NCBI GenBank assembly: GCA_020723325.1
Contig: DYJD01000005.1
Coordinates: forward strand, 1-64,000
Length of the DNA stretch: 64,000 bases
Reading direction: 5' to 3'
Origin: Desulfosudis oleivorans
GTDB lineage: Bacteria > Desulfobacterota > Desulfobacteria > Desulfobacterales > SURF-7
The position numbers were made by a program, and so were the translations under genes. Below, one piece after another: positions 37,632-51,060 of the stretch (the first letter of the stretch is position 1; each line of letters begins with the position of its first letter). Below the pieces are notes generated by a model. It worked only from the letters and a program-made list of their open reading frames with translations, did no database searches and had not been told where the DNA came from.

Positions 37632-38678
37632 TTAGGAGTCTGAAGACGCGGCCAATCGACTGCGATGCTCCAGATACAATTCATAGTTGTGTTTGATGAT
37701 TTCCGGAATCGGCAAGTCATAGGGACAACGGTCAAGGCATTCTTCGCAGTTCTCGCAAAGCGCAACGCTCTCCATAGCCTTTTGGGCAAAATTCATCGCT
37801 ACCTTAAAATCCATTCGGCTGACGATGATGGGGTACCCCATGGCCATGGTTATCAATACCCCGTTGGGGCATGGCTGGCAATACTCGCAGCGTCGGCAAA
37901 AATTCCGGCCGAGGCTGAGCCGGTAACCCTCGATCAGTGCTGAATCCTGATCAGTAAGCGTATTCGGTATCGGAATGGATAAAAACGCCGGAATATCGTC
38001 CACGGCACTCAAAGAGTCAAAGCCGGGCAGCGGTATGATGCCGGAATACTGTCTGAGGAATTTGAACGCCAGCATTCCGTTGTCAATGACACCGCCGGCA
38101 AACGGCTTCATGACCAGGATGCCCATTCCGCGTGCCCGGGCAGCCGGATGCAATTCCTCAAGGGCTTCGGTTTCAATGAAATTAAACGGAAATTGGATGG
38201 TGCTGAACAAGCCGGATTTGACCAGTGTGACGGCCATTTCCAGATTGTGCGAAGTGACACCGATATGGCGGATCTTTCCCGCCTGCTTTGCTTGCATAAC
38301 CGCCTCCAGCGCCCCACCAGGTGCTGTGACCGCCTCGAAATCCTTTTGCTGAGCGATCTGATGTAGTTGGAAAAGATCGATGTAATCCGTTTCCAGCGCC
38401 CGCAAGCTGTCGTCGATCTGTTGACCCGCCCCATTGGCGTCCCGGAGAATCGTTTTGGTGGCGATCAAAACTTTGTCGCGCATCCCGTAAAATGCTTTCC
38501 CGATCTTGTTTTGACTGTCGTGATACGCATTGGCCGTGTCATAAAAATTGATTCCATGCTCAAACGCCCGCCGCAGAACCTTCACAGCCGAGTCGGTTCC
38601 AAGCCGAATGATGGGTATGCCGCCGAAACCGATTTCGGAAACCAGCATGCCGGTATGGCCGAGTTCGATATATTTCAT
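37632..38678 (-). CDS. Aldo/keto reductase with C-terminal ferredoxin domain
   Basis: This 348-residue protein has an aldo/keto reductase barrel (LGHTGMLVSEIGFGGIPIIRLG, NFYDTANAYHDSQ with the catalytic Tyr, DLFQLHQI) followed by a C-terminal 4Fe-4S region (CRRCEYCQPCPNG and CENCEECLDRCPYDLP). Fused forms like this are common in anaerobes and are thought to couple NAD(P)H-type reduction with ferredoxin. AAAGGAG precedes the ATG. It is monocistronic. Substrate unknown. Confidence 0.92.
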   Translation of the reverse strand: MKYIELGHTGMLVSEIGFGGIPIIRLGTDSAVKVLRRAFEHGINFYDTANAYHDSQNKIGKAFYGMRDKVLIATKTILRDANGAGQQIDDSLRALETDYIDLFQLHQIAQQKDFEAVTAPGGALEAVMQAKQAGKIRHIGVTSHNLEMAVTLVKSGLFSTIQFPFNFIETEALEELHPAARARGMGILVMKPFAGGVIDNGMLAFKFLRQYSGIIPLPGFDSLSAVDDIPAFLSIPIPNTLTDQDSALIEGYRLSLGRNFCRRCEYCQPCPNGVLITMAMGYPIIVSRMDFKVAMNFAQKAMESVALCENCEECLDRCPYDLPIPEIIKHNYELYLEHRSRLAASSDS

Positions 38679-38907
38679 GGCTTGCTCCTTTAATTTGTGA
38701 GCATCTGGGGGTTGGCAAGAATTCTGCTACAAACACCTCATTTCGAATTATAACTATTTAATATCAAGTTTGTCCATGTTTCTTAAATTGAACATCCCTT
38801 CAAATTGGGTTATAGCATCCCTTAAAATCATTTGTTCATGGTTCGACAACACGAGAAACAGTTCCGCATGTCAGGCCTTTTCAAACCGCGTAATACGGAG
38901 ACTCTTT

Positions 38908-41052
38908 ATGAAAAAGATCTTGATCGGGCTGGGTGTTTTCCTGGGGCTGGTCCTGGCACTGCTGATCATCCTGCCCTTTGTCATCAACATCAGGGAGATC
39001 GTGGCCGCACAGCTTCCCGCGGTTGAAAAACAGATTCATCGCAAGATAGCCATCGGCGATGTTAGACTGACGTTGCTGACCGGTGTCGGCGCTGAAATCA
39101 GGAGCGTCAGCATTTCCAATCATCCGGATTTCCGCAAAGAAGCGTTTGTCAGCATGGAAAGCCTGCGCGCCAGGGTCCGATTGCTGCCCCTTTTAAAAAA
39201 GACGGTGATGGTTTCCTCGATTTCCATTGTCAAACCCGACATCCTGATTGAAAAAGACGGTCAGGGCCGCATGAACTTCGCTGATATGATCACCGCCCCA
39301 AAAACCGCCGAACCGGAATCAAAGGAACCAAAACCCCAGGAACCTGTAAAAGATCCCCTGGCCCTTTTGGGAACAATTCAGGTTTCCAATATTTCCATCA
39401 AAGACGCCCGTTTCCGTTTCTACGACGCCTCCAAGCCGGAATCCGCCAAGGAATACGCCTTGGACCGGCTCAATCTTGCACTGGATGCCGCGTATTCGCC
39501 CCAGGAAATCCAAGTAGATCTAGGTATGGATGTCAACCTCATGGTCAGCGATGTCTTTCCCAAGGATGCCGGCGCGCCTTTGTCCATCCGCTGTTCCACG
39601 CTGTTGCGCAAGAACGAGCTTCTGATCGAGCGGTTGAAACTGGTTCTCGGTAAAATGACCTTCAACGCCGCGGCCCGGATTCAGGACTTTGCAGCACCGC
39701 ACATCGACGGCCAACTGGATTTGGAGCCCACTTCCCTTGAGAATCTGCCGGCGATCCTGCCAATGCTGAAACCATTTGCACTCAAGGGTAAACTTGCCCT
39801 GTCCGATCTACGGGCAACCGGCACCATTGATGAATTGAAAGAATTGAAAGGCATCGGCGGGAAAGTAAGCCTGCAAAACGGCAGCATCACATCCTCTGCT
39901 TTGGTAAACTCCATCGAAAAAATTCAGGTTTCGGCCGTCCTGGCAGGCAAGGACGTCAAGGTGCAGGAGCTGACCTTTCAGGTGGGCGCGTCCGATGTCC
40001 GGCTCGACGCCGGGATTCAAAATATTTTCAAGCCGGCTGTTACCTTTAACTTAACCTCCTCCTATTTGGATGTGGACGGGCTGCTACCGCCCGCATCCAA
40101 AGCGGCTCAGCCAGGTGAAACAAAAAAAGAAGCCGGTGCTGGCAAGCCCCAAAAAGCGCCGGATCTCAAGGCCGATGGTCGCGTGGCGATTCAAAAATGC
40201 AAGCTCAAAGGCGTGCAACTGGAGGATGTTACGGCGGAACTCACATACGCCGATGCGGTGGCCGTCTTGAAAAAACTGCGCTTCACCACTTTCGGTGGGG
40301 TTGTCGCCACCAGCGCCCGGGTGGATCTTACAGATATGCAGACCCCCAAGTGGAGCATTGATCTGGGCCTGGAAAACATCAGCGCCAATTCAGCCCTCAG
40401 TCAGTTCACCAGCCTGAAAGACACCTTGTACGGCAATGTAAATACGCGCCTGTCGCTTCAGGGCACAGGCAAAGAGTGGTCTTCCATATCGAAAAGCCTG
40501 GGCGGCAAGGGTTCGGCCAATGTCGTCAGCGGCAAGCTGGCCTCGCTGAACCTGTTGGATGCGGTGGGCCAAAGTCTGGGAAAATTTCAGGGCCTGGGCT
40601 TGTTGGCCCAGACCCTTGCGCCCCAGGCCGGTGTCCAATCAAAGGAAACCACTTTCCAGGATCTGGCCGGCAAATTCTCGGTTCTGGAAGGGAAGATCCA
40701 GTTGGAGGACCTGACCATGGCGGCCCGAGATTTCCTGCTTTCCGGCGGCGGCCAGATCGGCTTGGACCAGAAGCTTGATTTGCGGACCTCCGTGGTGCTT
40801 TCCAACGCTCTTTCCGCCCGTCTAGAGAAAGACAACTATATGAAGTATCTGTTGAACAAAAACAAACAACTGGAAATTCCCTGCGCCATCTCGGGCGATG
40901 TCCAAAAGCCCCAGGTGGCGGCGGACGGCGACAGCCTCAACCGCATGCTCCAAAAAGCCGCCACTACCGCCGCCAAGGATCAGCTTCAGCAAGGTCTCGA
41001 AAAGAAAGTGGGCAAGGACGCGGGCAAGTTGCTGCAGGGCTTATTCGAATGA
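38908..41052 (+). CDS. AsmA family protein
   Basis: This 714-residue protein starts at MKKILIG with CGGAG upstream; an in-phase frame runs 138 bp further upstream but looks non-coding. One N-terminal membrane anchor (about 1-25) is followed by a long periplasmic beta-rich domain with the AsmA signature (LPAVEKQIHRKIAIGDVRL; FRKEAFVSMESLRARV). The central region is Ala/Lys/Glu-rich, and the end carries LSARLEKDNYMKYLLNKN and a basic helix. AsmA-like proteins are implicated in lipid transport and outer membrane biogenesis in Gram-negatives. It is monocistronic and divergent from the aldo/keto reductase. Confidence 0.88.
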   Translation: MKKILIGLGVFLGLVLALLIILPFVINIREIVAAQLPAVEKQIHRKIAIGDVRLTLLTGVGAEIRSVSISNHPDFRKEAFVSMESLRARVRLLPLLKKTVMVSSISIVKPDILIEKDGQGRMNFADMITAPKTAEPESKEPKPQEPVKDPLALLGTIQVSNISIKDARFRFYDASKPESAKEYALDRLNLALDAAYSPQEIQVDLGMDVNLMVSDVFPKDAGAPLSIRCSTLLRKNELLIERLKLVLGKMTFNAAARIQDFAAPHIDGQLDLEPTSLENLPAILPMLKPFALKGKLALSDLRATGTIDELKELKGIGGKVSLQNGSITSSALVNSIEKIQVSAVLAGKDVKVQELTFQVGASDVRLDAGIQNIFKPAVTFNLTSSYLDVDGLLPPASKAAQPGETKKEAGAGKPQKAPDLKADGRVAIQKCKLKGVQLEDVTAELTYADAVAVLKKLRFTTFGGVVATSARVDLTDMQTPKWSIDLGLENISANSALSQFTSLKDTLYGNVNTRLSLQGTGKEWSSISKSLGGKGSANVVSGKLASLNLLDAVGQSLGKFQGLGLLAQTLAPQAGVQSKETTFQDLAGKFSVLEGKIQLEDLTMAARDFLLSGGGQIGLDQKLDLRTSVVLSNALSARLEKDNYMKYLLNKNKQLEIPCAISGDVQKPQVAADGDSLNRMLQKAATTAAKDQLQQGLEKKVGKDAGKLLQGLFE

Positions 41053-42067: not shown

Positions 42068-45000
42068 TTAGAACAAACCGGCTGCCGGGTCATCTTCGCC
42101 CATGGCAAGCCACAGCCGCACGGCCGTCCGTACCACTTCGATGCGCGCCAGACGATGCGCCGTGATCCGGTCGCGAAGCTGGGCTTCCGCCGCCAGCAAA
42201 TCGTTGGTGGTGGCTCGGCCTTCCAAATGGCGGACCCGTTCCACCCTCAAGGTTTCCGAAGCCTGAGCCACAGCTTTTTCCTCCACGGTCACCGCCTCCC
42301 GAGTGGTGGACAAATCGGCCTGGACAGCCTGCAATTCGAGTTCGATCCCGCGATGGGCTTCCTGGATCTCGAGATCCAAGGCTTTCCTTTCCGCAGCCAT
42401 TTGAGCGGACCGTGAAGCGATGGTACCCGCGGCAAAAGGGGTCCAGGTTACCATGAGACGCCCCTCGGCCACATTGTCAGGCTCATAGGCCGAGCCTCCA
42501 TCCCAGGCCCATCCAAGGCTGGCATCCAGGCGGGGCCAACGCTCCGCCCGTACAGCGGATTCCTGATTGCGCAGGGACTCGGCGGCCGCCTTCATGGCCT
42601 GGATATCGGGACGGCAATTCCGAGACCGGTCAATCGAATCCGCCAGGCCGGGAATGTTTTCCAGCCGGATTTCCGGCAAAGTGCCGGCCGTGACGGTTCC
42701 CTTATGATGAATGGCGCGGGCCAGAGCCTGACGGGCAACCCCTGTTGCCTGTTCAAGGCGATTCAGGTCGAGGGCTGCCTGGTCATGAGCCAGGCGGACT
42801 TTCAGCATGTCGATCTCCAGGGCCCGGTCCGCGTCGGCCATGGCCGTGACCTCGGAAAGCCGGGATGCGAGACTGGCCAGATAGGCCTTGGTGGCGTCAA
42901 TGCGCGCCTCCACCGCAAGGACGTTCAAGAAATTTTCCGCCGCTTCCGCGGCCATGCGCTGCCGCCACCGCTCGGCATCATGCTGCTGGGCCAGGGTGCG
43001 TGCCTCCGCTGCCGGAATTCCATAGAAGATTTCAGACGGATGAAAAATCGGCTGCAGCAGCGATACCGAGGCTGAACCGGCCTGTTGTTCACCGACGCTG
43101 ATGGCACCCAGCAGGGGCATATCCATTTTCAGCTCCCGATCCCGTTTCCAAACCGAGGCACTCGAAGTCAGCTGGGGCAGGTAAACGGATCTCTTAATCG
43201 TTGCCGCTTCCTCTCGGGCCGCCGTTGTCCTTTGATCCGCGGCCTCCACAAACGGTCGGCTTTGCCCGCGCTGCATGGCTTCCTTCAGGGATATAACAAG
43301 CGGTTCCCCGCCATGTGCCGGAGCGATGAGGATCAGGGTGATCGCCGCCGTCACCGCCGCCTTTTTGAAGGGAATCCGGAAACCATGGCCGAAAGGTGAC
43401 ATGAGCAGGCGGTACAGCGCTGGCACCACCAGCAGGGTCAGCATGGTGGAAGCCATCAGACCGGAAATCATGGCTGAGGCCAGCGGCGGCCACAGGGTGG
43501 AGGAGGAAAACGCCAGCGGCAGAAGACCGGCCACGGTGGTTCCCGAGGTCAGCAGAATCGGACGGATGCGCCTGACCACCGCATCCTGAAGGGCGGTATC
43601 CATATCGGCCCCTTCCGCCAGCCGACTCTCCACCACCTCCAGCAACACAATGGCGTTGTTGACCACCACCCCCACCAGGGCGATCACGCCCAAAAGGGAC
43701 ATGAAGCCAAAGGGCTGATCGCCGATGACCAACCCAGGTATGACTCCGGCGGCTGCCAGCGGAATGGTGCTGAGAATGATGGCCGTACGACGGAAGGAGT
43801 TGAATTCGGCCATCAGCACGCCGAGCAGCAGCAGCATGCCGATGGGAAAGCTTTTCATCAACGCGGCGTTGGCCTCCCCCGAACCTTCGGCATCCCCGCC
43901 GAACTTCATTTCAACCCCTGGTGGAAGTGCCAGGGCCTCTCGCTGATTCGCAAATTTGGAAAGCACCTGGCTGAAGGTGACGCCTTCCTTTAATTGGGAG
44001 GAAACCGTCACCACCCGCTGGGCATTGCGATGTTTGATGGCTGCCGGCTGCCAGGCGGTGGATATTCGGGCGATCTGGCTCAGCGGCACGGTCCGGCCGT
44101 CCGGCCCGGTTACATCCAGGGAATCCAGGGAAGCGACGGGAATGCGTTCCCCGGCCGGGGCGCGGATCACCACCGGAATGGGGTCCTTTCCAGAACGCAG
44201 CTCGCCGGCTGGCAGTCCGCGTGTTCGGCCGTAAAGGCTGAGGGCCAGATTCGTGCGGGTCACCCCGTGCCGGGCCGCCGTGGCATCATCCACCTGAAAG
44301 CGCAGCATGGGGCCTCCGGGTCCTAAATCATGGCGGATATCCTTGGTTCCCGGAACAGATTTCAGCGCACCGGCGACCATGGTCGCCGCTTGGTTGAGGG
44401 TTTCGAGATCATCGCCGAACAGGCGGATTTCCACGGGCGCCTCTACCGGCGGGCCCTGCTCCAGTTTGCGCGCCACCAGTTCCACCTGGGGCAGTTCCGC
44501 CGTCGCAAACCGGCGGATCTCCTCCAGCAGCGGCTCGATCTCCGCCACCTGACGGGTTTCGACAATCAGCTGAGCGAAATGCGGACTGAAGGGCACCCGC
44601 TGAATATTGTAATAGAAGTGCGGTGCGCTGCGGCCCATGAATCCGGCAATTTTAACGACTTCCGGCCGGGAAAGTAACAGCGTTTCAATGCGCCGCACCG
44701 CCGCATCCGTGGCATCCAGATGACTGCCCTCCGGAAGCCGCAGATCGATAATGGCCTGGTTCCGGTCGGAGGAAGGAAAGAATTGGCTGCGTATCAGCGG
44801 CGCCAATGCCAATGAAACCCCCAGCAGAATCACCGCGCCGGCGATCACATTCCGGGGATGCCTCACCGCAATTGCGGCGAGCTTTTGGCCAAAGGTTTCC
44901 AACTGCATACTCCGGCGGATTTTTTCCGGGACCAGGACCGCCTGGGCCAGGGCCGGGGTGACCAGGACCGCATAGACATAACTCACACTCAAGGTGAGCA

Positions 45001-46390
45001 TCATGACCACCGGAATGGTCCGCGTAAAAGCGGCGGTGGGTCCATCGGCGATCAGCATGGGAACAAAGGCCGCCAAAGTGGTCAGGGTGGCTCCAGCCAG
45101 GGGGACGGCCAATTCCCGGACCGCCCCCAAGGCGGCTTCCCGGCCCGACTCCCCCCGATCCATACGCCACTGAACGTTTTCGGCTATCACAATGGCATTG
45201 TCCACCAGCATGCCCAGGGCCAGTACGATGGCCGCGATGGATATTTGGTGTAGAACACCGCCGTTCCAGGCAAATAGCGCTACGGATGTAAAAGTTACCA
45301 GAGGAATCACCGCGGCCACCAACAGTCCCAGGCGGGCGCCCATGGTCAGGAAGAGGATCCCGGCGACGATCAAGACGCCGAACAACAGCGACTGGTTCAG
45401 TTCGGAAAGACGTGTCACTGTGCGATCCGGCTGAAAGGTCACCTCGTGAACCGTCAGGGGCCGGATCAACGGTTGGATTTGAAGCAGTTTTTCCCGCAGC
45501 GCGGTTCCAAAATCCACCAGGTTGATGGACTTGCGGGGAACCACGCCGAGACCGACACTCATTTCACCGTTGAAGCGCATCCGCGCCGTTGCTGGTTCCC
45601 GCGGTCCCTGATAAACCCGGGCCACTTCGCTCAGTGGAACAAAGTCACCCGAAGCCAACTGGATGGGCGTTCCGGAGATTTCCTGCACCGAAGCGTATTC
45701 GGAGATCGGGCGGAGCCGGACGGTTTTTCCCTGGAGCTGCAGCGAACCGCCGGACAGAATCCGGTTGCGCGTTTCCAGTTGCGCCGAAAGCTGCCAGGCG
45801 TTGATGCCCAGGCGTCTGGCCACGGCATCGTCCAGCGCCACAATGACCTGTTCCTCAGGATCGGCGATCAGCTGGACCCTGGAAACCTGCGGCATGAGCA
45901 ACAACTGTTCCTTGATGGTGCGGGCGGCTTCCAGCAGCACCTTAAGATCGCCGCTGCCCGTGACGGATAGAACGACGGACTCCTGATCTTGCTGTTTTTC
46001 ATCCAGCACCGGTGCGCCGGCGCCTGCCGGGAAATCCCGCCGCCCGATCTCAAGGGATCGCCGCACCTCGTCCCAGGCCTTGTCAAAATCCACCGTGTCC
46101 CCGTGAAGTTCTAAACTAAGCACCGCCACTTCATCAAAGGCCGTGGCTTCGATTTCCTTGATTTCGGCCACTTCCGAAAGGGCGTCTTCCACGGGATTCA
46201 AGATCAGTCGCTCCACGGTAAGGGCGTCTGCGCCGGGAAATGGGATCACCACTTGGCCCCAAAAATCCGGGAGCCTGGGATCCTCCTGCCGGATCATGGT
46301 GACCCACAACAGCATTCCCGAAATCGATAGCAGCAGCGCCGTGGTCAGGATCAGCCGCCTTTGTTCCACAAGCTGTATCAGCCATTTCAT
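42068..46390 (-). CDS. RND efflux permease fused in frame to a TolC-like outer membrane factor
   Basis: The open frame encodes 1440 residues. Residues 1 to about 996 are an RND permease: a first membrane helix, the large periplasmic loops, and the proton-relay segment GMLVDNAIVIAENV in transmembrane helix 4, through to the last helices (LLTLLVVPALYRLL). From Met997 there is a basic stretch, then hydrophobic AAVTAAITLILIAPAHGG (about 1010-1028), which resembles a signal peptide. Residues about 1030-1440 are a TolC-type outer membrane factor with long helices. No stop lies between. Possible explanations: real fusion cleaved after export, or an internal start at Met997. It overlaps the adaptor gene by 4 bp. 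Confidence 0.88.
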   Translation of the reverse strand: MKWLIQLVEQRRLILTTALLLSISGMLLWVTMIRQEDPRLPDFWGQVVIPFPGADALTVERLILNPVEDALSEVAEIKEIEATAFDEVAVLSLELHGDTVDFDKAWDEVRRSLEIGRRDFPAGAGAPVLDEKQQDQESVVLSVTGSGDLKVLLEAARTIKEQLLLMPQVSRVQLIADPEEQVIVALDDAVARRLGINAWQLSAQLETRNRILSGGSLQLQGKTVRLRPISEYASVQEISGTPIQLASGDFVPLSEVARVYQGPREPATARMRFNGEMSVGLGVVPRKSINLVDFGTALREKLLQIQPLIRPLTVHEVTFQPDRTVTRLSELNQSLLFGVLIVAGILFLTMGARLGLLVAAVIPLVTFTSVALFAWNGGVLHQISIAAIVLALGMLVDNAIVIAENVQWRMDRGESGREAALGAVRELAVPLAGATLTTLAAFVPMLIADGPTAAFTRTIPVVMMLTLSVSYVYAVLVTPALAQAVLVPEKIRRSMQLETFGQKLAAIAVRHPRNVIAGAVILLGVSLALAPLIRSQFFPSSDRNQAIIDLRLPEGSHLDATDAAVRRIETLLLSRPEVVKIAGFMGRSAPHFYYNIQRVPFSPHFAQLIVETRQVAEIEPLLEEIRRFATAELPQVELVARKLEQGPPVEAPVEIRLFGDDLETLNQAATMVAGALKSVPGTKDIRHDLGPGGPMLRFQVDDATAARHGVTRTNLALSLYGRTRGLPAGELRSGKDPIPVVIRAPAGERIPVASLDSLDVTGPDGRTVPLSQIARISTAWQPAAIKHRNAQRVVTVSSQLKEGVTFSQVLSKFANQREALALPPGVEMKFGGDAEGSGEANAALMKSFPIGMLLLLGVLMAEFNSFRRTAIILSTIPLAAAGVIPGLVIGDQPFGFMSLLGVIALVGVVVNNAIVLLEVVESRLAEGADMDTALQDAVVRRIRPILLTSGTTVAGLLPLAFSSSTLWPPLASAMISGLMASTMLTLLVVPALYRLLMSPFGHGFRIPFKKAAVTAAITLILIAPAHGGEPLVISLKEAMQRGQSRPFVEAADQRTTAAREEAATIKRSVYLPQLTSSASVWKRDRELKMDMPLLGAISVGEQQAGSASVSLLQPIFHPSEIFYGIPAAEARTLAQQHDAERWRQRMAAEAAENFLNVLAVEARIDATKAYLASLASRLSEVTAMADADRALEIDMLKVRLAHDQAALDLNRLEQATGVARQALARAIHHKGTVTAGTLPEIRLENIPGLADSIDRSRNCRPDIQAMKAAAESLRNQESAVRAERWPRLDASLGWAWDGGSAYEPDNVAEGRLMVTWTPFAAGTIASRSAQMAAERKALDLEIQEAHRGIELELQAVQADLSTTREAVTVEEKAVAQASETLRVERVRHLEGRATTNDLLAAEAQLRDRITAHRLARIEVVRTAVRLWLAMGEDDPAAGLF

Positions 46391-47472
46391 AATGCCACCT
46401 CCACGGCATCGCCGTCCGAAAGCTTCGTCTGTCCGGTCGTCACGACCTGTTCTCCTGGGCGGAGCCCGCCATTGACCACAATGCGCTGCTCCAAAAGCGG
46501 CCCCAGGTCCACCACCTGCTTTTGAACTGCGCCTTCATGATAACGAAAAACATAAGGACGGCTGGAGCCAGGATTGACCACGGCGGTGATCGGAATGGTC
46601 ATCACCGAATCCGTCACCAGCTCGAACAGGACTTCGGCGGTCATACCAGCGGTGATCCGTTTGGCTGGATCCAAATCCACCGTAACCGGAAACAGACGGC
46701 CGGGCCCGGAAGCAGCCCGGGCGATGGCGCTGATGCTTGCCGTAACCGGCAGGCTGTCGGCAAGCGGAAACGACACCCCCACGGTCTGACCCATCTGCAG
46801 CCGAATCATGACCGCCTCCGGAACTTCCACATTGATTTCCAGCGGGCCGTCCCCCGAAATCTCCAACACTGGGCGACCCGGAGCGGTCCATTCGCCGGCT
46901 TCGATAAAAACGCCGGTCACTGTGCCGGCATACGGCGCCCGTAGAACGGTTTCATCCCGCAGGCGCTCGGCTTCGCGGAGTCTGGCGTTTGCAGCTTCCA
47001 GAGCTGCGGCCAAGCCCTTTTCGGCCGCCGTGGTTTTTTCCAGTTCCTCACCAGTGGCGGCTTTGGCGGTCACCAGCCGTTGGGCGCGGGAGCGGTCATT
47101 TTGCGCCTGGGCCAGCCGAGTTTCCAGCTCCGTCACCGACCCTAATGCCATGGCAACCGCGTTCCGAAACTCACGCGCATCCAGCTCCGCCAACGGCTGG
47201 CCGGCCCGGACATGTTCGCCCACATCCACTGGACGTTGCATGACCCGCGCCGGAACTCCAAAGGACAGCGCCGCGCGCTGCCGGGAACGGGTCGCACCGG
47301 AAAAGCGCACCGCACGCTTCATCTGGGACTGATCCACTGATTCCACCACCACCCGGACCCGGGATTGTGGTTCCGGGGACACCGTTTCCTTGCGGGGCAT
47401 GGCCCACAAAGCCACGGCAACACCCAAACACATTACGCCGATTGCCAGGGAAATAACTGTATTCCGTTTCAT
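46387..47472 (-). CDS. RND efflux periplasmic adaptor (membrane fusion protein)
   Basis: This 361-residue adaptor starts at MKRNTVISL with GGGAGGAG upstream; the frame is open about 57 bp further. An N-terminal anchor (about 1-25) is followed by the biotinyl-lipoyl-like halves (FGVPARVMQRPVDVGEHVRAG and VLRAPYAGTVTGVFIEAG) enclosing a coiled-coil hairpin (about 100-150), and then a beta-barrel and membrane-proximal domain. It bridges the permease and the outer membrane factor across the periplasm. It follows tetR and is preceded by an operator; its stop overlaps the permease start. Confidence 0.93.
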   Translation of the reverse strand: MKRNTVISLAIGVMCLGVAVALWAMPRKETVSPEPQSRVRVVVESVDQSQMKRAVRFSGATRSRQRAALSFGVPARVMQRPVDVGEHVRAGQPLAELDAREFRNAVAMALGSVTELETRLAQAQNDRSRAQRLVTAKAATGEELEKTTAAEKGLAAALEAANARLREAERLRDETVLRAPYAGTVTGVFIEAGEWTAPGRPVLEISGDGPLEINVEVPEAVMIRLQMGQTVGVSFPLADSLPVTASISAIARAASGPGRLFPVTVDLDPAKRITAGMTAEVLFELVTDSVMTIPITAVVNPGSSRPYVFRYHEGAVQKQVVDLGPLLEQRIVVNGGLRPGEQVVTTGQTKLSDGDAVEVAL

Positions 47473-47509
47473 CTGTCTCCTCCCGATCATTGCAATATCG
47501 CCGCCATTT

Positions 47510-47529
47510 TTAACTGGTCGGCCAATCAA
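47510..47529. promoter_or_regulatory. TetR operator before the adaptor gene
   Basis: TTAACTGGTCGGCCAATCAA matches the operator before tetR at 17 of 20 positions. A minus-strand pair TTGAAT/TAAATT, about 16 bp apart, overlaps its right edge and could be the efflux promoter. Confidence 0.6.
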
Positions 47530-47622: not shown

Positions 47623-48243
47623 TCAACGTTTTCGAGGAAGAATCCCCTCAAAAAATATTTTGATGATGGCTTCCAGATAACCGTCATCCAGTTTTTCCGG
47701 CAAGCCGTCCGTCCCGAAGTCAGCGATAAAATGTTCTTTATCCTGAAACCAGTGCTGACACAGGCCGATGAAAACGAACAGAAGGAACCGCGCATCCACG
47801 TCGTCCCGGATCTCTCCGGCTGCCTGGGCCTGTTTGACCTTCTGGAGGCCGATATCAATCAGTTCCTTGTCTTTCTGCATGCAATCGTAGTTGTCGTTTT
47901 CCAGAAAGATCCAGGCCAGAATCCTGACAATTTGCGGATTTCTTTTCAAAAAATCAAAATAAAACACCAGGGAAGCCCGCAGAAGCTCCACCGAGGGTTC
48001 CGCGTCCTGGATGATTTCAAGCTGCCGGTCCGCATATACCATGAACCGCCGGGTTTTGATCTCCTGCCACAGCCCTTCTTTGGAATTGAAATAATGGTGG
48101 ATCAGGCTTTTGGTGATATCGGCGCGCCGGGCGATATCACTGAGTGAGGTATTGCCAAAACCCTTTTCCAGAAAGACCGCCTCTGCAGCCTCTAGGAGAG
48201 CCTCGCGGGTCGCTTCCGGATTGCGGATTTGTTTGGATGTCAT
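47623..48243 (-). CDS. TetR family regulator of the efflux operon
   Basis: This 206-residue regulator starts at MTSKQIRNPEATR, with GGAGG upstream; an in-phase start 27 bp earlier is less likely. The HTH is in NTSLSDIARRADITKSLIHHYFNSKEGL, following AEAVFLEKGFG. It lies 151 bp upstream of the adaptor gene on the same strand. Related operators before both itself and the adaptor gene suggest it represses itself and the pump. The inducing ligand is unknown. Confidence 0.92.
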   Translation of the reverse strand: MTSKQIRNPEATREALLEAAEAVFLEKGFGNTSLSDIARRADITKSLIHHYFNSKEGLWQEIKTRRFMVYADRQLEIIQDAEPSVELLRASLVFYFDFLKRNPQIVRILAWIFLENDNYDCMQKDKELIDIGLQKVKQAQAAGEIRDDVDARFLLFVFIGLCQHWFQDKEHFIADFGTDGLPEKLDDGYLEAIIKIFFEGILPRKR

Positions 48244-48272
48244 GGGTCGTTCCTCCGAATTTCCTCTCATCT

Positions 48273-48685: not shown

Positions 48686-49480
48686 TTACGCTATTGACTT
48701 TGTTCTTAGAAAATCTTTGACGGCATGTACCACGGTTTCAGGTTTTTCTCTGTGCGGCAGATGCCCGCAGTCTTTTAGAATCATCAATTCCGAAACCCCG
48801 CCCGAATTTCCAGCAATGAATTCCGCGGACGCCGTGGAGCCGTATTCATCCCTGCCCCCGTGAATAGCGAGTAACGGGCAATGCACGTTTTGAATACTCC
48901 CATTCAAACTCCAGTCCGCAAAATCAGGAGACAGCCATACGCCGGTCCAGGCATCAAGAACCCATTTCGCTTTTCTACCGTGCCATCGCTCCAGCCGTTT
49001 GAACTGACCGGACCGCTCGAATTCCTTTTTGGCATTGACAATGCCCTCTTTGGTCAGCTCCTCGATAAAGGCCTGGGTCGCGACTGTTACCACGGCCTTG
49101 CAGTCCGGATCGCGTGACGCGATATGGACGGACATCCCGCCTCCCACACTGTGACCAAAGAGGATGTACGATGACATCGACAGCCCGGATTTCACGAAGG
49201 GAAAATACGTGCTCGCCTCTTCTACGATAAAATCGAGGGACGGCGGTTCAACGCGCGGATCAGACTTCCCGAATCCAAGACGGTCATAAGCAAAGACCGC
49301 ACGGGAGAGATTCCGCGCAAGCGTTTCCGGAAAATCCCGCCATAAGTCAACACATCCCAGTGAGTCATGCATCAGCACGACCGGTACATCGGACAGTTTT
49401 TTTTCCGGCATCCACGACTTGGCGTAAACATTTCCACCGAGGACGCTGATGGTGAACTCTTTTGTTCTGATTTTATTCAT
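48686..49480 (-). CDS. Alpha/beta hydrolase
   Basis: This 264-residue hydrolase carries the complete triad: the nucleophile in ILFGHSVGGGM (GHSVGG, about residue 110), Asp in IHGGRDEYG, and His in KDCGHLPHREKP. It starts VPVVLMHDSLGCVDLWRDFPE, which supplies the oxyanion loop. It is 17 bp downstream of the WS/DGAT gene, so a lipase or esterase acting on storage lipids is a reasonable guess. No signal peptide is seen. Confidence 0.9.
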   Translation of the reverse strand: MNKIRTKEFTISVLGGNVYAKSWMPEKKLSDVPVVLMHDSLGCVDLWRDFPETLARNLSRAVFAYDRLGFGKSDPRVEPPSLDFIVEEASTYFPFVKSGLSMSSYILFGHSVGGGMSVHIASRDPDCKAVVTVATQAFIEELTKEGIVNAKKEFERSGQFKRLERWHGRKAKWVLDAWTGVWLSPDFADWSLNGSIQNVHCPLLAIHGGRDEYGSTASAEFIAGNSGGVSELMILKDCGHLPHREKPETVVHAVKDFLRTKSIA

Positions 49481-49497
49481 GATCGGAGCAACAATAT

Positions 49498-50907
49498 TTA
49501 ATCTTTAAGATGTGACCCCAGATCATGCAACTCCTCTTCAAATTCTTCCAATATGGTATCCGGATCCGGTACCAAGCGCTCATCGGTAACCAGGCCGACA
49601 ACCACTTTGCCGGCATAGCTGAAAATACTTATCCCCATGCCGACCTTACCGGTTCGCGGGACCCAGCCGATAAAATTTTCAATCCTTTTTCCTGCCAGAT
49701 AGAGCGCTTCCTGAGGGCCGGGAACGTTGGTCATGGCCATGGAAGCCTTATTCGCAAAAAAATTGGAGGCGGTCTTGGCGATATTGGCCGATGATAGACC
49801 AAGGGCATTCAAAACCATAAAAGCGACAAACGCATCCTGCGATTGTTTGAGATGATCCATGCGCTTTTTGACCTCTTGCAACCGCGCAACAGGATCTTCG
49901 ATGTATACCGGCAACGCGAGAAAAACCAGGCTGAATTTATTTCCCAGTTCAAACGCGGCCCCCTGCTTGCGGATGTTGACCGGAATGGCGGCGCGCAGTT
50001 CGGTTTTAGTAATTTTGTCACCTTTGGAAAGTAGGTAACGCCGTAACGCCCCGGTTACCGTAGCCATCAGCACATCATTGATGGTGGCATCAAGGAATTT
50101 GCTTAAGGCTTTAATTTTTTTTAATGGTATCGGATTGGACCAGGCCACACATTTACGTACTCCCAACCGTCCCCTGAAGGATGTTTTCGGATCAGAAGGC
50201 ATCATGGCAAGCTTGCCCAAAACCGCTACCGTGTCCAGAGGCAGGCTGGAGGTATTTTTGGCCAGCTTCTTTACATAGGCTGGGTTGGCGATGACTTTTG
50301 AGCATTCTTTCAACAGCTTTTCACCGATGACTTGCGATTTTTCGATAATCCCTGCGACATTGGTCATGAATGGTCCGTGCGGTATGATAGACGGCAACCA
50401 TTGCTTTTTCTTTCTGGGAGATTTTTCGCCGAATAAGGGCTTGCCGTCCTTGGTGTCGGTGGTGGATAGTAAAACATAGACCAGGGCAATGCCGTCGGCG
50501 ATGCAATGGTGAAGACGAAAAAACAGCGCACAGCCCTTATTATAATTTTCGATAAGATGGCATGACCAAAGCGGCTTGGTCCTGTCCATGGGGATCGACA
50601 TCAAATCACTGACCATCTCTTGAAGTTCCTTCTTGCCGCCGGCTCCAGGCAGCGCGACTCTGTGAAAATGGGAGCGGATGTCGAAGTAGGGATCCAGCTC
50701 CCAGCTAGCGATTCCAATGCCTGATATCGGCATAACAACGCGTTGCTTGAAACGATTAAACGCGCATAAACGGTTTTCCAGAACAGTATAGACCTCCTCA
50801 TACGCCAGTGTTTTCTTAAATTCCATAATGCCGGTAATGATCATCAAATTTGTTGGATGATCCATGTGAAGCCAGAAATTATCCGCATTGGTCATTGTTC
50901 GAGCCAT
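49498..50907 (-). CDS. Wax ester synthase/diacylglycerol acyltransferase (WS/DGAT) family
   Basis: This 469-residue enzyme starts at MARTMTNADN, with GAGGGG upstream; the frame is open 57 bp further. The WS/DGAT catalytic motif HHxxxDG is HHCIADG (133-139). Further matches are PLWSCHLIENYN, RRYLLSKGDKI and NVPGPQEALYLAGK. The family transfers acyl-CoA groups to long-chain alcohols or diacylglycerol, making wax esters or triacylglycerol. The motif being intact argues that it is active. It is followed by an alpha/beta hydrolase and a small exported protein. Confidence 0.9.
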   Translation of the reverse strand: MARTMTNADNFWLHMDHPTNLMIITGIMEFKKTLAYEEVYTVLENRLCAFNRFKQRVVMPISGIGIASWELDPYFDIRSHFHRVALPGAGGKKELQEMVSDLMSIPMDRTKPLWSCHLIENYNKGCALFFRLHHCIADGIALVYVLLSTTDTKDGKPLFGEKSPRKKKQWLPSIIPHGPFMTNVAGIIEKSQVIGEKLLKECSKVIANPAYVKKLAKNTSSLPLDTVAVLGKLAMMPSDPKTSFRGRLGVRKCVAWSNPIPLKKIKALSKFLDATINDVLMATVTGALRRYLLSKGDKITKTELRAAIPVNIRKQGAAFELGNKFSLVFLALPVYIEDPVARLQEVKKRMDHLKQSQDAFVAFMVLNALGLSSANIAKTASNFFANKASMAMTNVPGPQEALYLAGKRIENFIGWVPRTGKVGMGISIFSYAGKVVVGLVTDERLVPDPDTILEEFEEELHDLGSHLKD

Positions 50908-51060
50908 GATGAACCCCTCAAAAATTCTCAAAATGAAAAAGCGCTGTATTGAAATTGAATTCATTGAACGATCTATTTACTACTATTATTGCGATGGCTG
51001 TCAAGGTGCAATTGGGGTCACAAATTAAATATTTCCGATTGATTATTTCTGAGGTAATCC

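Follow-up and report, generated by a model that had tools for sequence, protein, structure and literature searches.

Tripartite RND efflux pumps are usually described as three separately made parts (permease, periplasmic adaptor and outer membrane channel), and the channels are often shared. Outer membrane factors (OMFs) of the TolC family normally have genes of their own and begin with an N-terminal signal peptide. The MexJK pump of Pseudomonas aeruginosa works with channels that are encoded separately from it, either OprM or OpmH (PMC9323910). Outer membrane pore families have been surveyed, and fusions are described there as rare, with none to an RND protein listed (PMC4827864). No published natural RND-OMF fusion was found in our literature search, which covered few subscription papers.

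We analysed a 64,000-nucleotide stretch of Desulfosudis oleivorans DNA (here called the window), in which a gene at 42068-46390 on the minus strand encodes an RND permease and a TolC-family OMF in a single frame of 1440 amino acids. The closest solved permeases are of the drug type, namely MexK of MexJK (E 7e-121) and an RND transporter chain in entry 6vej (E 8e-116), which we take to be TriC of Pseudomonas aeruginosa TriABC. In contrast to MexJK, the window pump has its own channel inside the permease gene, and in contrast to ordinary OMFs the channel's signal-like segment is internal, after 12 transmembrane (TM) helices.

Architecture of the fused gene

The earlier note had proposed a permease and a TolC-like channel in one reading frame, and this is borne out: all 1440 codons between 42068 and 46390 are free of stops. 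The permease domain (residues 1-996, 43403..46390 on the minus strand) was identified from Pfam and motifs as a 12-TM, AcrB-type protein, with ACR_tran (PF00873) spanning residues 11-996 at 481.6 bits against a cutoff of 28. The channel domain (residues 1028-1440 and the stop codon, 42068..43309, minus strand) contains two OEP (PF02321) repeats, scoring 104.2 bits with the best match at 1250-1413. Both domains are complete. A sequence search of the PDB found no relative of the OMF part, which was therefore assigned by fold. Residues 951-1440 were modelled with AlphaFold from a 20-row alignment, giving a mean pLDDT of 83 and a structure that passes from TM12 through a short linker helix into a TolC-type arrangement of two beta-hairpins and long helices. 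Foldseek matched the channel model to TolC and ST50 (E about 1e-19) and also to OprN and CusC, with TMt of about 0.70-0.80.

The proton relay of AcrB uses an Asp pair in TM4 and a Lys in TM10. In TM4 of the fused permease the motif is GMLVDNAIVIAE, where the first Asp is kept and the second is Asn, and in TM10 it is GVVVNNAIVL, with Asn at the position of the AcrB Lys. This residue pattern is also found in ordinary split relatives. Scores fall below every NCBIfam subfamily cutoff, the best being NF033617 (391 against 1250 bits), with the HME family TIGR00914 at 278 against 701 and the HAE-1 family TIGR00915 at 204 against 940. By these profile comparisons, the permease is a member of the RND superfamily that is assigned to no named subfamily.

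The fusion gene is the last in an operon with the order TetR-MFP-RND::OMF, all on the minus strand. A TetR-family regulator (47623..48270, Pfam TetR_N) lies upstream of the periplasmic adaptor gene (MFP; 46387..47529, TIGR01730 RND_mfp, 210.9 bits against a cutoff of 94.9), and the adaptor stop and fusion start share 4 nt (ATGA). Neighbouring genes were assigned mostly by eye. Beside the operon are an alpha/beta hydrolase-like gene (48686-49480, minus strand) and a wax ester synthase/acyltransferase-like gene (49498-50964, minus strand). On its other side, a large AsmA-like gene (38770-41052, plus strand) separates it from a gene that resembles aldo/keto reductases and contains Cys motifs (37632-38678, minus strand).

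Conservation of the fusion in relatives

An apparent fusion could result from an assembly or sequencing error, or from a decaying gene that has lost its stop codon. The genome is 99.5% complete and the gene lies within a 284-kb contig, which argues against such an error, and base composition shows no jump inside the gene. The same genome has some twelve matches to RND permeases of the AcrB type, and this gene is the only one of them that continues into an OMF; its stop-to-stop frame measures 1488 amino acids, and other full-length RND frames there measure 1042-1140.

Relatives could also have carried two separate genes, a possibility that the earlier note had raised. Instead, the same fusion was found in four further genomes, forming with the window a set that we call group 1: G322 (1439 amino acids), L044 (1438), L045 (1439) and a broken copy in G024. 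G322 and G024 came from searches of the window's order, and L044 and L045, both MAGs, from an alignment scan of a genome collection. That scan returned no match when a single fusion sequence was used and three loci when it was repeated with a three-row alignment. Group-1 permeases are 63-66% identical to that of the window, and the G322 orthologue is 63% identical in the RND part and 42% in the OMF part. All five loci share the order TetR, MFP, fusion gene as well as the 4-nt overlap between the latter two, and the four other TetR orthologues, found in the same place, are 58-62% identical to the window's. Among G322, L044 and L045, dN is about 0.11-0.12 for the permease (dS 0.82-1.01) and 0.17-0.20 for the channel (dS 0.75-1.03), and these low values relative to dS indicate purifying selection on both domains.

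The G024 copy (L021:4846-9235) is decayed, with about 150 permease residues lost and a frameshift, and its MFP reading frame appears shortened at the start; the fusion junction is intact. Decay of the operon thus occurs in the family. Against this, there are intact fused copies in three relatives, in which both domains are under purifying selection, and we regard error or decay as a highly improbable explanation of the window gene. The fusion architecture is real and is conserved in relatives.

The linker and the fate of the chain

The earlier note had placed a basic, hydrophobic, signal-like segment at about 1000-1028. Its presence was confirmed and its limits were refined: the signal-peptide-like segment recognised by rule-scored features covers residues 1005-1027 (43310..43378, minus strand; RIPFKK AAVTAAITLILIAPA HG), and its hydrophobic part spans about 1011-1025, preceded by R1005, K1009 and K1010. 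It combines a basic n-region (+4), a 15-residue uncharged run and an AxG/AxA motif, with a predicted signal peptidase I cut (shown by a slash) at AHG/GEP or APA/HGG. When all ten fused linkers were scored by the same simple rules, each was found to have +3 to +8 basic residues, an uncharged run of 11-22 residues and a small-residue motif at -3/-1 near the expected start of the mature channel (for example ARA/D, AHG/G, ALA/G and SSG/Q), the motif being a permissive one with several candidate sites per sequence. Linker identity within group 1 is only about 10-45%, and constraint is weak (dN/dS about 0.4-0.8 over about 33 codons). As far as sequence features can tell, signal-peptide character persists in the linkers while their sequence diverges.

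Internal initiation could instead yield the channel as a protein of its own, in which case the fusion of the two reading frames would be incidental. The earlier note had offered Met997 for this role, and its ATG (43400..43402, minus strand) does lie in frame directly ahead of the signal-like segment. For every in-frame ATG, GTG and TTG in the linkers, we calculated the energy of pairing with the 16S tail. Met997 gives +0.9 kcal/mol, against a random median of -2.5, -10.6 for the ATG of the fused frame itself and -4.2 to -8.2 at the OMF starts of split homologues, and its position is not conserved among fused homologues. It is therefore judged to be unused. The lack of a Shine-Dalgarno (SD) sequence at Met997 is evidence rather than proof, because several other window genes also lack one by this measure, so that a leaderless or SD-independent internal start is conceivable. 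GTG1013 pairs weakly (-3.2) and could also serve as a start, although the resulting signal peptide would have no basic residues.

Other fused genes bear on internal initiation in both directions. An ATG occurs just before the hydrophobic segment in G322, G024 and G237, possibly as a relic of a former OMF start, and stronger SD-like pairing is seen at internal codons in G322 (codons 1016/1018), G237 and Persicobacter. In the last two this pairing is moderate, so internal initiation is possible there. In G128, however, no ATG, GTG or TTG was found between TM12 and the hydrophobic segment, and L045 has a single internal candidate, an ATG where TM12 ends (SD -1.7). Furthermore, the frame is open through the linker in all five group-1 genomes. 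We consider it unlikely that the window channel is made from Met997 or GTG1013.

A second alternative is that the hydrophobic segment forms a 13th TM helix and is not cleaved, so that permease and channel stay covalently joined. This would fit the continuous encoded chain, and AlphaFold places a helix at 1008-1021 in its model of the last 490 residues. However, with 15 uncharged residues (11-12 in Persicobacter) the segment is short, and each of the ten sequences has a cleavage-like motif after it. A TolC-type channel begins far from the inner membrane in a tripartite pump. Given the short segment and a distance too great for the few residues before the OEP domain, such a tether is quite improbable.

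The earlier note's other proposal, one chain with an internal signal segment and release by signal peptidase, is the best-supported reading, with signal-like linkers in all of the fused sequences. We think it probable that the window gene encodes a single-chain polyprotein from which signal peptidase I releases the channel at an internal signal peptide, followed by ordinary tripartite assembly. Translation from 46390 would yield one chain, whose permease part would insert its 12 TM helices and end on the cytoplasmic side. The basic linker would then serve as n-region for a Sec signal peptide lying inside the chain, and the short hydrophobic segment would insert N-in/C-out, bringing the TolC-like domain into the periplasm. 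Cleavage after about residue 1027 (AHG/GEP) would free the channel, which would trimerise and enter the outer membrane. A permease trimer, the co-encoded adaptor and the channel trimer would form the pump, and permease and channel would be produced in a 1:1 ratio. In this scheme Sec export, cleavage and assembly of the products with their own partners are inferred steps.

Recurrence and comparison with known systems

The arrangement had been called unusual in the earlier note. The fusion itself is real, and that description has to be qualified, since RND::OMF fusions recur in the order and in Bacteroidota. More distant examples in the same order are G237 (1476 amino acids), G380 (1474) and G128 (1472), and two genes of 1467 and 1466 amino acids are carried on Persicobacter (Bacteroidota) plasmids. 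Among the matches listed from 389 genomes of the order, at least five genomes have intact fused frames (G000, G322, G237, G380 and G128), plus the broken copy in G024.

Several other larger-than-usual OMF frames were considered and rejected as fusions. In G214 the frame is an extension of a 441-amino-acid gene starting at its own ATG, and in G324 and G296 the upstream parts look non-coding by eye. An OMF in G097 (L070:1611-4130, minus strand) has a long N-terminal extension with LytR_C (PF13399) after its own signal-like start; this extension is unrelated and the fusion is of a different type.

Split relatives of the second group of fusions were also found. The fused G237 permease shares 81% identity with the permease of G273, which is encoded apart from its channel, with about 65 bp between the two genes. 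In the group-2 split operons of G273, G325 and G005, the OMF directly follows an RND permease 64-81% identical to that of G237, and the split genes are adjacent or overlap out of frame, with an SD ahead of the OMF start. The G325 channel gene starts within the permease 3' end in another frame (L062:9038-9114), and from an overlap of this type one indel could yield a fusion. In G052 the split permease and channel genes overlap by ATGA. OMFs of split MFP-RND-OMF operons start with an ordinary N-terminal signal peptide similar in make-up to the fused linkers, in a comparison that leaves out G005, where the codon used (SD -5.8) lay in the wrong frame. The split arrangement is likely to be the pre-fusion state for group 2.

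A permease tree implies about five changes between the fused and split states, at least four of them forced by well-supported branches, in a quick analysis with SH-aLRT support only and two long branches, one of which is fused G128. In this tree the fused genes of group 1 form a clade that has full support and a long stem, and no close split relative of it was found. Fusion probably arose more than once, and fission may have occurred in some lineages. These genes could tentatively be viewed as a class of efflux polyproteins that recurs and is under selection, in which an internal signal after a 12-TM permease directs export, signal peptidase releases the channel and stoichiometry is 1:1, possibly delivering a channel to its own pump as opposed to a shared TolC pool.

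If the polyprotein reading is correct, motor and exit duct made in one chain would have a fixed ratio, and the channel could be dedicated to its pump. It would also provide a naturally occurring example of outer membrane protein delivery from within a polytopic membrane protein. The apparently repeated fusion from an MFP-RND-OMF order provides natural fused/split pairs, such as G237/G273 (81%), in which the effect of fusion can be tested.

Persicobacter WP_338399011.1 (1467 amino acids) has the same architecture, an overlapping upstream MFP gene and a signal-like linker, although it is only about 26% identical to the window protein over the covered part and lies on a different permease branch. 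Its RefSeq name, 'efflux RND transporter permease subunit', does not mention the channel part, and annotation of this kind can hide a channel. A TolC domain may also be present at the end of some CusA/CzcA-type proteins from Bacteroidota, which are about 1440 amino acids long. The window channel domain shares its fold with TolC, ST50, OprM and CusC. A polytopic inner membrane protein followed by an internal signal peptide and an exported domain, and then cut, is known from FbcH of Bradyrhizobium, the cytochrome b/c1 polyprotein. FbcH serves a respiratory complex, and the part cut from it remains at the inner membrane, whereas the window channel is proposed to reach the outer membrane. The window fusion is a variant of the tripartite RND pump and not a new kind of system.
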